From positions 62,001-126,000 of the forward strand of contig MKTY01000018.1 of NCBI GenBank assembly GCA_001898485.1: DNA of 64,000 nucleotides. Reading direction: 5' to 3'. A model generated the notes under the pieces. That model saw nothing but the letters and a program-made list of their open reading frames with translations, searched no databases and was not told the origin of the DNA. Each line of letters begins with the position of its first letter. Within the stretch, counting starts at the first letter, position 1. Position numbers and translations under genes: made by a program. Source of the DNA: Sphingobacteriales bacterium 46-32. GTDB lineage: Bacteria > Bacteroidota > Bacteroidia > Chitinophagales > Chitinophagaceae. Positions 21,067 to 62,406 of the stretch are shown here, piece after piece.

Positions 21067-21237
21067 GATTTCGATTTGAAAAGGTGTTGATGTGAAGATT
21101 TGAAAATTGACGCCAGTTCATTCGGATCTGTTCTTTGAGAAATGAAGGCGCTGATTTTTTATCAGTATGGTAAAAGTCAGATCAGCGGAGGATGTGCCAA
21201 TTTTCAAATCAGCACATCTTCAAATCTTCAAATCAAT
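21067..21237. repeat. Word-pair inverted repeat, locus B
   Basis: The left arm is made of words like GATTTGAAGATGTG. The right arm (CAATTTTCAAATC, then CACATCTTCAAATCTTCAAATC) is their complement. GATTTGAAAATTG (21097-21109) and CAATTTTCAAATC (21198-21210) pair perfectly over 13 bp with an 88-base loop. It separates tRNA-Tyr from tRNA-Gly. Confidence 0.7.
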
Positions 21238-22940: not shown

Positions 22941-23050
22941 AAAGGTTTAAGAGTTCAAAAGTTTAAAGGTTTAAGGCTAACGGTCTGATCTGTCCTTAAG
23001 CATTTGGAATTTAAACTATTAAACCTTTAAACATTTAAACCCCTAACTTT
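22941..23050. repeat. Word-pair inverted repeat, locus C
   Basis: GTTTAAAGGTTTAA (22961-22974) and TTAAACCTTTAAAC (23019-23032) pair perfectly over 14 bp. Flanking words (AAAGGTTTAAG; CATTTAAACCCC) extend the pairing imperfectly. The 14-mer is the same as in locus D between rpoB and rpoC. TAACTTTA (23044-23051), at the end of the repeat, is close to a -7 box just 5 bases before the secE ATG. Confidence 0.7.
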
Positions 23051-34028: not shown

Positions 34029-37000
34029 ATGTCTTCTACAAAAGTGAACTCAAGAGTGGACTTCGGTAAGATCAAGCACCTGGCTGAAACTCCCGACCTT
34101 CTTGAAGTACAGATTCAGTCTTTCAAAGAGTTTTTCCAGTTAGAAACGACCCCGGACAAACGTAACAATGAAGGCCTGTTCCGGGTATTTAAGGACAACT
34201 TCCCGATCACCGACACAAGAAACATCTTTGTGCTCGAGTTTCTGGATTACTTCATTGATCCGCCCCGCTACACTATTGAAGAGTGTATGGAGCGTGGTCT
34301 TACTTATGCCGTTCCCCTGAAGGCCAAACTGCGCCTTAGCTGTAACGACGAAGAGCACGTAGACTTCCAGACAATTGTTCAGGATGTGTTCCTGGGTAAT
34401 ATACCTTATATGACCCCCCGCGGTACATTCGTGATCAATGGTGCTGAGCGCGTAGTCGTTTCTCAGCTGCACCGCTCACCCGGTGTATTCTTTGGTCAGT
34501 CTGTACACCCCAACGGTACCAAAATTTACTCTGCCCGTGTGATCCCCTTCAAAGGTGCATGGATGGAGTTTGCTACCGACATCAACAACGTGATGTACGC
34601 CTACATCGACCGGAAGAAGAAATTCCCGGTTACCACCCTGCTCCGTTCTATCGGCTACGAAACCGATAAAGACATCCTGGAGCTGTTTGGTATGGCCGAT
34701 GAGGTGAAAGCCGATAAAAAACTCCTGTCTAAATATGTAGGCAGACGCCTGGCTGCCCGTGTACTCCGTACCTGGGTAGAGGATTTTGTAGATGAGGATA
34801 CCGGTGAAGTAGTATCTATCGAGCGGAATGAAATCGTAATGGAGCGCGATACTGTTCTCGACGAAGAAGGTATCGATACCATTGTAGATATGGATGTAAA
34901 GAGCGTATTCATTCAGCGCGAAGATGTAGGTGGTGACTATGCCATTATCTACAATACCCTGAACAAGGATACTTCCAACAGTGAGCTGGAAGCCGTTCAG
35001 TTTATCTATCGCCAGCTGCGTGGTGCCGATGCACCTGATAACGAAACTGCCCGTGGTATTATCGATAAGCTGTTTTTCAGCGATAAACGTTATGACCTCG
35101 GTGAAGTAGGCCGTTACAAAATCAACCGCAAACTCAGTCTGGATGCTCCGCTGGATCAGAAGACACTGACCCGCGAAGACATTATCCTGATCATAAAATA
35201 CCTGGTACGCCTCACAAACGGTAAAGCAGAGATTGATGATATCGATCACCTGAGCAACCGTCGTGTACGTACCGTAGGCGAGCAGCTCTATGCCCAGTTT
35301 GGTGTAGGTCTGGCCCGTATGGCCCGTACCATCCGCGAGCGGATGAACGTGCGCGATAATGAGGTATTTACTCCTGTTGACCTGATCAATGCCCGCACAC
35401 TGTCTTCTGTGATCAATTCCTTCTTTGGTACATCACAGCTGTCGCAGTTCCTCGATCAGACCAACCCCCTGTCAGAGATCACACACAAACGCCGTATCTC
35501 CGCACTCGGACCAGGCGGTCTGAGCCGTGAGCGTGCCGGCTTTGAGGTGCGTGACGTACACTACTCTCACTACGGACGTCTGTGTACAATCGAAACACCT
35601 GAAGGTCCCAACATCGGTCTGATTTCTACACTGTGCGTACACGCCAAGATCAACGATATGGGCTTCATCGAAACCCCCTATCGTAAAGTAACCGACGGCA
35701 AAGTGAATATGAAGGAACTCGAGTTCCTCAGTGCAGAAGAAGAAGACCTGGCAAAAATTGCCCAGGCCAATACGCCGCTCGATGATAAAGGCAACTTCGT
35801 GGAAGAAAAGATTGTGAGCCGCGAAACCGGTGACTTCCCGATCCTCGACAAAAATGAAGTGGAATTCATGGACGTGGCACCCAACCAGATCGTGGGTCTG
35901 AGTGCTTCCCTGATTCCATTCCTCGAGCATGATGATGCCAACCGTGCCCTGATGGGATCAAACATGCAACGTCAGGCTGTACCCCTCATCCGTCCCGATG
36001 TACCTGTAGTAGGTACCGGTCTGGAAGGTAAAGCAGCCCGTGATGCACGTATCCAGATCCATTCAGAAGGCGAAGGTGTGGTTGAGTTTGTAGATGCCAA
36101 CGAGATTCATGTTCGTTACGATCGTGATGAGGCCGAAAAACTGGTAAGCTTTGAAGAAGATCTGCGCGTATACCGCCTGACCAAGTTTATCAAAACGAAC
36201 CAGGAAACCTGTATCAACCTGAAACCTGCCGTTAAGAAAGGTCAGAAGGTGAAAAAAGGAGACTTCCTTACCGAAGGGTATGCTACACAAAATGGTGAGC
36301 TCGCTCTTGGTAAAAACCTGAAAGTGGCCTTCATGCCCTGGAAAGGTTACAACTTCGAGGATGCCATCGTGATCAGCGAACGCGTGGTAAAAGAAGATAT
36401 GTTTACTTCTGTTCACATCTCTGAATATGAACTGGAAGTACGTGATACAAAACTGGGTGAAGAAGAACTGACTCCGGATATCCCCAACGTGTCTGAAGAA
36501 GCCACTAAAGACCTGGACGAAAACGGTATCATCCGTATCGGTGCCAGCGTAAAAGAAGGTGATATCCTGATCGGTAAGATCACTCCTAAAGGAGAGTCTG
36601 ATCCCACTCCGGAAGAGAAACTGCTGCGCGCCATCTTTGGTGACAAGGCAGGTGATGCCAAAGACGCTTCCCTGAAAGCACCCAATGGTGTGGAAGGTAT
36701 CGTAATTGGTAAAAAACTCTTCCAGCGCGCCAAAAAAGACAAGAACGCCAAAGTACGTGAGAAAGCAGCCATCGAGAAACTCGAGAAAGTGCACGAAAAG
36801 AATGAGAGCGATCTGAAAGAGATTCTTCTCGAAAAGCTGACTACACTGCTGAAAGATCATGCTTCTGCCGGTGTAAGCAACAACTTTGGTGAAGTACAGA
36901 TTGGCAAAGGCGCCCGATTCACAGCCAAAAACCTGGCTGGCCTGGATTATCAGAATATCAATCCGCTGGGCTGGACTGGTGATGCTAAAATCGACGACCA

Positions 37001-37832
37001 GATCAACATCCTGCTGCACAATTTCAATATCAAATACAACGAAGAGCTGGGACGTTACAAACGCGAGAAATTCAATATCTCCATTGGTGACGAACTGCCT
37101 GCAGGTGTATTGAAGCTGGCTAAGGTTTACCTCGCTGTTAAGCGTAAGCTGAAAGTAGGGGATAAGATGGCCGGTCGCCACGGTAACAAAGGTATTGTGG
37201 CCAAGATCGTGCGTCAGGAAGATATGCCATTCCTCGAAGATGGTTCACCTGTAGACGTAGTGTTGAATCCGCTCGGTGTACCAAGCCGGATGAACCTGGG
37301 TCAGATCTACGAAACAGTACTGGGTTGGGCCGGTCAGAAACTGGGTGTAAAATTTGCTACCCCCATTTTTGACGGTGCCAGTACCGAAGAGATCGAAAGC
37401 TATTGCAACGATGCAGGCATTCCGAAATTTGGCCACACGTTCCTCTATGATGGTGAAACGGGTGAGCGCTTCCACCAGAAGGCTACCGTGGGTATCATCT
37501 ATATGATCAAGCTGCACCACATGGTTGACGATAAGATGCACGCCCGTTCAATCGGACCATACAGTCTTATCACACAGCAGCCGCTCGGTGGTAAAGCTCA
37601 GTTCGGTGGTCAGCGTTTCGGGGAAATGGAAGTATGGGCACTCGAAGCTTACGGTGCTTCCAACATCCTGCAGGAACTGCTCACGATCAAATCTGATGAT
37701 ATCATTGGCCGTGCCAAGACGTATGAAGCAATTGTAAAAGGTGATAACGTGCCGCGTGCAGGTATCCCCGAATCATTCAACGTACTGGTTCACGAATTGC
37801 GCGGTCTCGGTCTTGACCTGAAGTTTGAATAA
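34029..37832 (+). CDS. rpoB: RNA polymerase beta subunit
   Basis: This 1,267-residue subunit forms part of the polymerase catalytic cleft. Recognisable regions are [12 protein letters not shown], the rifampicin pocket [20 protein letters not shown] and [10 protein letters not shown], and the C-terminal [21 protein letters not shown]. Length is normal for Bacteroidota. It starts without a Shine-Dalgarno. The rifampicin pocket residues appear wild-type (Asp, His, Arg and Ser positions kept). It is followed by rpoC after a 113-base spacer with a word-pair repeat. Confidence 0.98.
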
Positions 37833-37912
37833 GTTATAAAGTTTAAAGGTTTAAATGCCAGGATCACACAAAGGTCACCAGCTTTTAAACCTTTAAACCT
37901 TTCAACTTCTAA
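37831..37912. repeat. Word-pair inverted repeat, locus D (rpoB-rpoC spacer)
   Basis: GTTTAAAGGTTTAAA (37841-37855) and TTTAAACCTTTAAAC (37884-37898) pair perfectly over 15 bp with a 28-base loop; AAGTT and AACTT at the ends extend it. The core is the same as in locus C. It lies inside the rpoBC transcript, so the hairpin should exist in the mRNA. Confidence 0.75.
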
Positions 37913-42481: not shown

Positions 42482-43081
42482 ATGAAAAATGTGCTGCTGA
42501 CCTGGAATATTGTATTGACGCTTGCCGCTGGTTATCTGTTTTATGCCTACTACACCGGTAAACAGAAAAGTAAAAGCCGTATTCAGGCTGAGATTGCCAA
42601 AACAGTTGGCCCTTCCGGCCCTTTCCGTATTGCCTATTTCGAAATGGACTCTATCGAGAGCAGTTATCAAATGGTCAAAGATGTGAAAGCCGAAATCACT
42701 AAAAAGAATGAAGAACTGGGTGCTGAAATAGCTAAACTGGGTCAGGAAATGGAGAACCGCCAGCGCTATTATGAGCAAAAACAGCATACCATGAGCGAGG
42801 ACGATGTACGCAAAGCCCAGGAAGACCTGATGCGTCTGAATGAAAACCTGAAGACCCGTCGCCAGAATCTCGAAAACGAATACCAGGATTTTGTATTTCG
42901 CCGCAATCTGACGGTACGCAAGGAAATCGAAAAATTTCTGGCTACTTTCAATGAGAATAAGAAATATACCTACATCATGTCGTATGAGCAGGGGCTCTTT
43001 TATTACAAAGACACAGCCTACAATATCACCGGCGAAATAGTAAACGGCCTTAATCAGGAATATAAGAAAGCGAAGAAATAA
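42482..43081 (+). CDS. OmpH/Skp-like periplasmic protein
   Basis: This 199-residue protein has an uncleaved-looking N-terminal membrane helix (TWNIVLTLAAGYLFYAYY) and then a small strand (FRIAYFEMDSIE) and a long coiled coil (about residues 60-140, rich in Glu, Lys, Gln). It closes with a strand-like segment (YTYIMSYEQGLFYY). This is the architecture of OmpH/Skp chaperones, which hold outer-membrane proteins. The anchored form suggests action at the inner-membrane surface. Function by family only. Confidence 0.78.
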   Translation: MKNVLLTWNIVLTLAAGYLFYAYYTGKQKSKSRIQAEIAKTVGPSGPFRIAYFEMDSIESSYQMVKDVKAEITKKNEELGAEIAKLGQEMENRQRYYEQKQHTMSEDDVRKAQEDLMRLNENLKTRRQNLENEYQDFVFRRNLTVRKEIEKFLATFNENKKYTYIMSYEQGLFYYKDTAYNITGEIVNGLNQEYKKAKK

Positions 43082-43265
43082 TGTGCTAATGTGCTGATGT
43101 TGGGTTTAAAGCGTATAAAGGGTATAAATAGTTTAAAGTGATTTCTTTAAATTATTTATACCCTTTATAGCTGGCGGCACCCAGTCACTGATCATACATC
43201 AGCACATTAGCACATCAGCACATCAGCATATTAGCACATCAGCACATCAGCATATTAGCACATTT
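43081..43265. repeat. Nested word-pair inverted repeat with 24-bp tandem, locus E
   Basis: The outer arms ATGTGCTAATGTGCTGATG (43081-43099) and its exact complement (43197-43215) pair over 19 bp. The inner arms TATAAAGGGTATAAATA (43114-43130) and TATTTATACCCTTTATA (43153-43169) pair over 17 bp. The right outer arm continues as about 2.6 tandem copies of a 24-bp unit of CAGCACAT, CAGCATAT and TAGCACAT words. The first base overlaps the ompH-like stop. Confidence 0.85.
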
Positions 43266-43303
43266 CCTCCGAATTACTTATCTTGATCGCCAAACCCCCT
43301 TAC

Positions 43304-44725
43304 ATGGCAGAGGAAACCTCTTTTAAACGATCGCTAGGATTAGTAGATGCCACCATGATTGTGGCAGGCTCTATGATTGGCTCCGGTATCTTTATCGTGA
43401 GCTCCGATATTACCCGCAATGTGGGCAGTGCCGGCTGGCTCATTGCAGTCTGGCTTATTACCGCTTTTATGACCATTACAGCTGCCGTTAGCTATGGCGA
43501 ATTGAGCGGCATGTTTCCGAAGGCCGGTGGTCAGTATGTATACCTCAAAGAAGCGTATAACCCGCTGATGGGGTTTTTGTATGGCTGGAGCTTTTTTGCT
43601 GTAATCCAAACCGCCACTATTGCGGCCGTAGGTGTGGCATTCAGCCGCTTCACGGCTTACCTGATTCCACAGGTAGGGGAGGATAATATATTGCTTACCC
43701 TGGGCAGTCTTAAAATATCTGCAGCGCAGGTGCTGGCTATTGCCGTAATAGTATTGTTGACCTATACCAATACCCGGGGAGTAAAGGAAGGCAAGATCAT
43801 TCAAACCACCTTTACTTCCGTAAAACTGATTTCCCTGTTCGGGCTCATTGTGCTGGGCTTTATTCTTGCCAAAGAAAGCTTCTGGTCTTCTAACTGGGAG
43901 AATGGCTGGGCTGCTACACAGGTTCCCAAAGATGCTGTTGGCGAAGTAGCACGCGATAACTGGCAGCCTATTGGTGGTGCTGTGCTCATAGGCGCTATTG
44001 CCGCTTCCATGGTAGGGTCTATTTTCAGCAGCGATGCATGGAACAATGTGACCTTTATTGCCGGTGAAATCAAAAATCCGAAACGTAATATCGGCCTGAG
44101 CCTTTTCCTTGGAACACTGATGGTGTCATTTATTTATGTGGCGGCCAACTTTATGTATCTCCATGTATTGCCACTGCAGGAAATAGCCTATCCTACAGGC
44201 AACCGTGTGGCCGTAGCAGCTTCTGATGCCATTTTTGGCCCCAGTGGCTCTACGGTGATTGCCGTAATGATTATGATTTCCACCTTTGGCTGCAACAATG
44301 GACTGATCCTGGCCGGCGCTCGTGTATATTATACCATGGCACAGGATGGACTGTTCTTTAAAAAGGCCGGTCATCTCAATAAGAATGCCGTACCTGGCTG
44401 GGCCCTTTGGGCACAGGCAGTGGTAGCATCTTTGCTTTGCCTCAGCGGCAGCTACAACGATCTGCTCACCATGATATCTTTTGTAGTGGTAATTTTTTAC
44501 GCACTTACCATTGTGGGCATTTTCATTCTGCGCCGTAAGCGCCCCGAACTGGAACGTCCCTATAAGGCATTTGGCTATCCTGTATTGCCGATCATTTATG
44601 TGCTGCTGGGGCTGACCTTCTGTATTTTCCTTGCCATCTTTGAGCCTCTGTATTCGCTCTGGGGCTTGGGGATTGTGCTGCTGGGTATTCCGCTTTACTA
44701 TGTAGCTATTGCAGTAAGAAAATAA
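43304..44725 (+). CDS. APC-family amino acid permease
   Basis: This 473-residue transporter has about 12 hydrophobic segments. The first helix carries the APC substrate motif GSMIGSGIFIVSS and helix 6 region SIFSSDAWNNVTFIAGEIKNPKRN is typical of the amino acid exchanger (LAT-like) branch. The N-terminus is cytoplasmic and short. It imports or exchanges amino acids, with unknown specificity. I use the ATG at 43304; an upstream in-frame TTG at 43283 adds seven residues. A nested repeat of about 180 bases precedes it. Confidence 0.88.
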   Translation: MAEETSFKRSLGLVDATMIVAGSMIGSGIFIVSSDITRNVGSAGWLIAVWLITAFMTITAAVSYGELSGMFPKAGGQYVYLKEAYNPLMGFLYGWSFFAVIQTATIAAVGVAFSRFTAYLIPQVGEDNILLTLGSLKISAAQVLAIAVIVLLTYTNTRGVKEGKIIQTTFTSVKLISLFGLIVLGFILAKESFWSSNWENGWAATQVPKDAVGEVARDNWQPIGGAVLIGAIAASMVGSIFSSDAWNNVTFIAGEIKNPKRNIGLSLFLGTLMVSFIYVAANFMYLHVLPLQEIAYPTGNRVAVAASDAIFGPSGSTVIAVMIMISTFGCNNGLILAGARVYYTMAQDGLFFKKAGHLNKNAVPGWALWAQAVVASLLCLSGSYNDLLTMISFVVVIFYALTIVGIFILRRKRPELERPYKAFGYPVLPIIYVLLGLTFCIFLAIFEPLYSLWGLGIVLLGIPLYYVAIAVRK

Positions 44726-45918: not shown

Positions 45919-46109
45919 GAGCCGCTATACAAGATGAAATTGGAAAAAAACGACATTCTGACCGCTGTTAATGACTCCATTCAGATTTCAGCATGACTTA
46001 ACCTCCTGTTGAAATCTCGTATCTGCGATATTCTACGTTTTCTATGGATAAAATTTCCGGCAGATTTACACAGATAAATATTCCCCGGCCTTTCGGACAG
46101 CGCCATTCC

Positions 46110-53928: not shown

Positions 53929-54020
53929 GGGTATAAAGGGTATAAAATGTTTAAAGAGTTTAAAAGGTGGACTACTCTTTATACCCTTTAAACTCTTTAA
54001 ACCCTTTAAACCCTTTAAAC
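53929..54020. repeat. Word-pair inverted repeat, locus F
   Basis: GTTTAAAGAGTTTAAA (53949-53964) and TTTAAACTCTTTAAAC (53987-54002) pair perfectly over 16 bp. The arms continue as GGGTATAAAGG words on the left and CCCTTTAAACCC words on the right. It separates the EPS operon from the heparinase-like gene, 12 bases after that gene's stop. Confidence 0.8.
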
Positions 54021-62307: not shown

Positions 62308-62406
62308 AAAGGTGGACGGTAAAAGGTAGAAGGTAGAGGGTCAGGAGATGAAGAGGAAAGATTAGATGTTTTCCTTTTACCCTCTACCTTTCACCTCCCA
62401 CCTTTA
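62308..62406. repeat. Word-pair inverted repeat, locus G
   Basis: The left arm has AAAGGTGG and AAGGTAGAGGG (62330-62340); the right arm has CCCTCTACCTT (62380-62390) and CACCTCCCACCTTTAC. The 11-bp core is perfect. The vocabulary (AGGTAGAAGG) differs from the AAAGGTTTAA type of loci A, C, D and F. It ends 4 bases before the stop of the hybrid kinase gene. Confidence 0.65.

Follow-up and report, generated by a model that had tools for sequence, protein, structure and literature searches.

Paired octamer arrays form a dispersed, mostly intergenic inverted-repeat family, often anchored at stop codons, in a Sphingobacteriales genome

Short repeats between bacterial genes are known in several forms, of which the TAACTGA heptamer repeats, the repetitive extragenic palindromes (REPs) and the miniature inverted-repeat transposable elements (MITEs) are the nearest kinds to the octamer family described here. 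We followed this family, built of the word TGTGCTRA, from an element situated between an OmpH-like gene and an amino acid permease gene in a 64,000-nucleotide stretch (the window) of Sphingobacteriales bacterium 46-32 (contig MKTY01000018.1, positions 62,001 to 126,000). The TAACTGA repeats (MacGregor, 2015; PMC4679880) are also tandem arrays of a short word that contains stop codons; they lie mostly between genes, are scattered patchily over distant phyla (Bacteroidetes among them), are able to overlap the ends of coding sequences and have no known transfer mechanism. However, the unit here is not that heptamer but an octamer, arranged in inverted pairs of fixed polarity around a core, often starting at a stop codon and with arms that change jointly. 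The REPs of the GTAG and CGTC families (PMC3733652) are likewise intergenic palindromes near gene ends, and the termini of GTAG REPs often supply the stop codon of the flanking open reading frames (ORFs), but their stems have 5-13 bp and a GTAG or CGTC tag, whereas in the present family the paired arms comprise 16 to 112 nt of octamers (21 pairs) and the cores mostly 40-141 nt. BrickBuilt, a MITE of Porphyromonas gingivalis (PMC4596501), is an intergenic element of Bacteroidota with inverted-repeat ends and a tandem array; it carries its 23-nt tandem internally and is bounded by IS5-like repeats of 11-12 nt, whereas here the tandem array is itself the inverted repeat. Finally, template switching at quasipalindromes is reported to homogenise the arms of inverted repeats and to invert their spacers (PMC8604942), and to create and maintain hairpins (PMC8794818); it predicts arm homogenisation and spacer inversion, and is described there for yeast coding DNA and RNA genes, unlike the dispersed tandem-array family of this work. 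No description of this octamer family appeared among the open-access papers listed in our searches, and a search for six literal words matched one paper, on Candida albicans, unrelated by its title.

The element at the focal locus lies 3' of rpoC and fills the gap between its two neighbors (43079-43264; Table 1). An earlier note on this DNA had proposed a 19-pair outer stem and a 17-pair inner stem between two genes, overlapping a stop codon by one base, and all of this was found: the outer stem measures 20 nt with 100% complementarity (43081-43100 with 43196-43215), the inner one 25 nt with 96% (43114-43138 with 43145-43169; 17 perfect pairs, one mismatch and 7 more), and the OmpH-like ORF ends in a TAA (43079-43081) of which the last base belongs to the outer stem. 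Read as TAA-TGTGCTAA, the stop codon is in register with the octamer. The same note had described a 24-bp tandem of about 2.6 copies, and Tandem Repeats Finder indeed gives period 24 with 2.8 copies for 43196-43263, but also period 8 with 8.5 copies, and the left arm (43079-43100) has an 8-bp periodicity of its own; the basic unit is thus the octamer ATGTGCTR, three of which make up the 24-bp unit as a repeat of higher order. The plus strand of 43075-43270 folds to -78.6 kcal/mol, compared with -36.2 +/- 3.6 for 200 dinucleotide shuffles (z -11.9, no shuffle as good), and the minus strand of the element folds 9.5 standard deviations below its shuffles. At gathering score, Rfam recognised only 5 tRNAs in the whole window and no family at the focal element.

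That the element belongs to a family, as the note supposed, is evident from its own genome, where a 231-bp query gave at least 73 BLAST matches (40 of 297 candidates scored), mostly to the octamer array and some to the core or the left arm, and where 210 exact copies of the 20-mer ACATYAGCACATYAGCACAT were counted, overlapping ones included, with no occurrence of the reversed pattern. The arms show a marked polarity, since two-arm clusters are arranged as TGTGCTRA-core-TYAGCACA ('><') in 24 cases vs 2 of the opposite kind ('<>'), and among 80 named loci in 19 vs 1. Of the 52 clusters of this genome, 4 lie in a gene or have no full gene gap around them, and a called ORF contains 2 of these. Several right arms end, as judged by eye, just before a TAnnTTTG-like box, which may be the promoter element of Bacteroidota. 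More broadly, 464 kb of the genome (the window and 20 sampled stretches; arms of at least 18 nt and at least 85%) contained 26 inverted repeats, vs 0 in one first-order Markov simulation of the same sequences, and 19 of them have arms with a period of 7 to 9 bp (read by eye) written in a handful of words: TGTGCTRA, GTTTAAAGG, GTTTAAAG, GGTAGAA, CTGTCAA and others.

Many arrays lie at gene ends. Within 60 bp of a 3' gene end, TGTGCTRA runs in the sense of the gene in a ratio of 41:2 in the own genome, 47:14 in the 80 named loci and 11:1 in the congener described below, and in 10 of 41, 14 of 47 and 2 of 11 cases, respectively, the stop codon is precisely where the array starts. It is on these exact-zero counts that the anchoring rests, and not on the phase of the arrays, for which distances to the stop divisible by 8 were counted in 22/41 and 23/47, a distance of 8 being not always a unit. 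Within 60 bp of a 5' gene end the arrays read TYAGCACA instead (18:4, 22:9 and 12:0 in the same order). With gene gaps defined by a simple longest-ORF rule, the 44 octamer-bearing gaps comprise 21 tandem, 14 convergent and 9 divergent ones, a mix not different from that of all gaps (p 0.12); an enrichment in convergent gaps (14/44 vs 25/143 of all gaps) was therefore discarded.

Outside this genome, the distribution of the array is intergenic and patchy over distant taxa. Named genomes contain at least 106 stretches that match a 28-mer pattern, and 76 of the 80 loci listed are Bacteroidota by title, the other four being Pegethrix, Burkholderia, Shewanella and an alphaproteobacterial metagenome-assembled genome. 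The 231-bp query matched 10 of 59 genomes, own included, and the exact 20-mer 2 of 395 genomes of the phylum (the own and one other), the reversed control matching one other genome, twice. As separate observations, a Shewanella aestuarii contig carries an array of 16 octamer units (L155, 1263-1390), and in Burkholderia stagnalis an octamer array lies inside a called ORF (L115, 2603-2658); these may be due to chance, contamination or transfer.

The behavior of the elements over time was read from a congener (G001), a fragmented metagenome-assembled genome in which repeats may be misassembled. Over 2.6-3.1 kb this congener is identical to contigs of Chitinophagaceae bacterium Gw_Bodden_bin_256, so that the genome of the window probably belongs to Chitinophagaceae as well. 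From 18 slots queried, all picked for carrying octamers so that persistence refers to that set, 14 were found, 11 with both flanks and 3 with one, and another comparison supplied 3 further two-flank slots, for 14 in total; the flanks are about 94% identical on average. An inverted repeat is kept in 14/14 of these two-flank slots, 13 with octamer-type arms, whereas any such repeat occurred in 21 of 1400 Markov versions of the slot intervals, none as good; the earlier idea of a hairpin kept while its arms change thus holds across the set. In the remaining slot (L057/L250) octamer arms in the own genome face TTTGAAGA-type arms (25 nt, 100%) in the congener, whose interval is longer, rich in repeats and includes some octamers. 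Three ordinary gaps, the only ones taken as control, had identities of 0.88, 0.82 and 0.30, the last holding an insertion. In the three one-flank slots, inspected by eye on the congener side, one has octamers, one a different word beside a start codon and one (L244) no octamers in the stretch examined. At the focal slot the array differs in copy number: the congener has four to five octamer units at the permease edge rather than eight or more, and behind them other repeats, including further octamers, fill about 670 bp as far as the end of the contig.

The two arms of an element seem to change together. In 12 of 14 slots the arms of one element pair better with each other than with those of the other species (Wilcoxon p 0.0016), and in the congener better than with the arms of other elements, again in 12/14 (p 0.0013). 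New motifs appear in both arms of one element, with 26 nt at 100% (L062/L252), 28 nt at 100% (L069/L248), 39 nt at 97% (L041/L242) and 37 nt at 97% (L070/L221). Over 21 arm pairs of the own genome the longest shared run is 18.7 vs 16.7 in permutations, 11 of 1000 being as high. In 11/14 slots arms also match their counterparts in the other species less well than they match non-orthologous elements of their own genome (p 0.04), which is compatible with a genome-wide homogenisation. Copies 2 and 3 of the focal 24-mer carry a common variant absent from copy 1, which agrees with the unit-wise growth by slippage that the note had envisaged; however, slippage on one arm alone would spoil the pairing and, given that pairing is better within the element in 12/14 slots, either copying of arm from arm (template switching or inverted-repeat conversion) or selection is needed in addition. 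Of the 14 cores, 7 have no similarity, 2 align in the same orientation and 5 score inverted above 300 shuffles, the one clear case (L078:3701/L251) with an inverted score of 56 vs 9 in the same orientation and 24 as the highest of 1000 shuffles.

We regard these elements, with a probability of roughly 60%, as dispersed, mostly intergenic and self-maintaining inverted repeats, shaped by template switching and slippage and with at most a mild effect at the 3' end of transcripts. Each would consist of a short core flanked by two arms, built of the octamer RATGTGCT and set in a fixed polarity, occupying the slot from a stop codon to the next promoter or gene. The arms would lengthen or shorten by slippage in steps of 8 or 24 bp and stay complementary because each templates the other, by template switching at the hairpin or recombination between inverted arms, and the same process could invert or replace the core; the footprint in arms and cores fits template switching between inverted repeats plus slippage. 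Spread would proceed by copying between slots. When transcribed, an element would yield an extended hairpin immediately 3' of the stop; the probable effect is to shield the 3' end of the mRNA or to substitute in part for the terminator that the outgroup seems to have. Several points weigh against this explanation. In the own genome an arm matches its partner no better than the arms of other elements (25.1 vs 25.9; 9/14; p 0.48), and arm identity, whether anchored at the inner or at the outer end, is no different from that of permuted arms, of which 195 and 475 of 2000, respectively, score as high. One-arm-only clusters amount to 26 of 52 in the own genome and 72 of 92 in the named loci. Among the five inverted-scoring cores, two hold palindromic stems, one holds leftover octamers (by eye) and one is borderline, so only one clear core inversion is left; inversion as a general rule is unsupported, and L035/L222 exceeded all shuffles in two comparisons but not in a third. 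Selection on RNA pairing could also yield the joint change of arms, and the presence of the same word in distant genera is left unaccounted for.

The selective alternative, in which the hairpin is a functional RNA 3' end or terminator that terminates or protects the transcript of the preceding gene, its arms being held complementary by selection on pairing, seems to us unlikely. It agrees with the start of the element at the stop codon and with its strong fold, with GC stems followed by T-runs in some cores (L041/L242, by eye), and with the outgroup G002, where the same gene pair has no octamer array but an ordinary stem with a T-run a few nt after the stop (by eye). On the other hand, a scan for GC-containing stems with a T-run, limited to loops of 3-8 and with 0.3 sites expected by chance, gave none on either strand of 42950-43400. 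A terminator would be useless in the 9 of 44 octamer gaps that are divergent, and the multi-base motifs common to both arms are unlike stepwise compensation. Moreover, a hairpin with GTTTAAAG-type arms (TTTAAA word; 37831-37908, fold z -5.95) extends from the stop of rpoB (34029-37832) to 37 bp before rpoC (37946). This hairpin and the lack of a terminator-like site make strict termination unlikely as a shared function of the wider class, and as full termination between rpoB and rpoC would do harm if rpoC lacked a promoter of its own, a repeat that maintains itself at the DNA level, with a mild 3'-end effect at most, is favored.

A MITE-like transposable element moved in trans, with the octamer arrays as its terminal inverted repeats, is in our judgment quite improbable. 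The arrays do form inverted repeats at the termini, cores are related between some unlinked copies (94% over 87 nt in the L033 pair; 93% over 46 nt between L040 and the focal element), the outgroup slot is without the repeat, albeit too diverged for a boundary to be read, and a different dispersed element of the window (45966-46109) has an empty site in the congener. Empty octamer sites, however, numbered 0 in the 14 two-flank slots, and of the three one-flank slots one (L244) is free of octamers in the stretch examined; neither a target duplication nor a parent transposase was found, in a transposase search that covered Y1_Tnp only, and its single match over the cut-off (PF01797) has none of four repeat words on either strand of its 3.3-kb locus. 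Plasmids gave no match to the octamer repeat and viral contigs none to the 24-mer pattern, and carriage by plasmid or phage was rejected. The Y1 locus also speaks against a REP system with a REP-associated tyrosine transposase (RAYT) flanked by the repeat, an identity that was rejected because the arms are too long and no constant tag was seen by eye in 32 elements. The octamer could also be read as a chain of minimal frames ATG-TGC-TRA with overlapping TRATG stop-starts (period 9-1=8), along which ribosomes re-initiate; the unit does read that way and the start of an array often coincides with the stop codon of a gene, but the variants largely contradict it and we consider it extremely improbable. 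In 487 units of the own genome, counted with at most one mismatch, variation stays below 1% at positions 1, 3, 4 and 6, A or G occupies position 7, and position 2, which would be the G of the ATG, ranks second in variability (11.7%), whereas the free second codon varies by at most 0.6% at its first two bases; in 858 units of the named loci the G varies by 8.3%, these two bases by at most 0.5% and only the third base of the codon by more (13.3%).

Table 1. Coordinates of the focal element and its neighboring genes in the window
Feature	Position	Strand	Remarks
Left outer arm, octamer array TAATGTGCTAATGTGCTGATGT	43079..43100	+	Begins with the TAA stop of the OmpH-like gene
Core (spacer)	43101..43195	.	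Lies between the two outer arms
Left inner arm, word GGGTATAAA / GTTTAAAG	43114..43138	+	Pairs with right inner arm
Right inner arm	43145..43169	+	96% complementary to left inner arm
Right outer arm, octamer array (TYAGCACA), also the 24-bp tandem x 2.8	43196..43264	+	First 20 nt pair perfectly with left arm
Upstream gene, 199 aa, OmpH-like	42482..43081	+	PF03938, E 5e-17
Downstream gene, amino acid permease (ORF tool start, TTG 43283)	43304..44725	+	PF13520, E 7.7e-59

Extended beyond the octamer, the same features might tentatively define a class in Bacteroidota: self-templating intergenic hairpins, made of 7- to 9-bp words common to distant genera and paired in arrays at stop codons, which would retain their place and their pairing even as the word mutates or both arms exchange it for another, so that heredity would reside in form rather than in sequence, with spread by some copying process. 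Joint change of two arms is usually taken as proof of a selected RNA structure, and many natural sites in two close species offer a means of telling selection from template switching; they could thereby also show how bacterial genomes acquire long hairpins and keep them. The findings suggest that short-word repeats, easily dismissed as slippage debris, may follow a fixed plan linked to stop codons, even in genera far apart.

Other repeats were seen in passing. The CTGTCAA heptamer pattern matches 6 of 117 family genomes, own included, a count for which the reversed control is uninformative because the pattern is its own mirror. More inverted repeats with short-period arms in other words occur at 21073-21234, 22941-23046 and 62308-62396 of the window, two of them adjoining a tRNA cluster, and a hairpin of a 9-bp word at 53931-54020 has different arms at the same slot of the congener, where the left flank is 99% identical. 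The element at 45966-46109, of about 144 bp and with an ATCTGCG word, is missing from this site in the congener (gap of 221 vs 70 bp), which has related stretches elsewhere; it is probably a genuinely mobile element.
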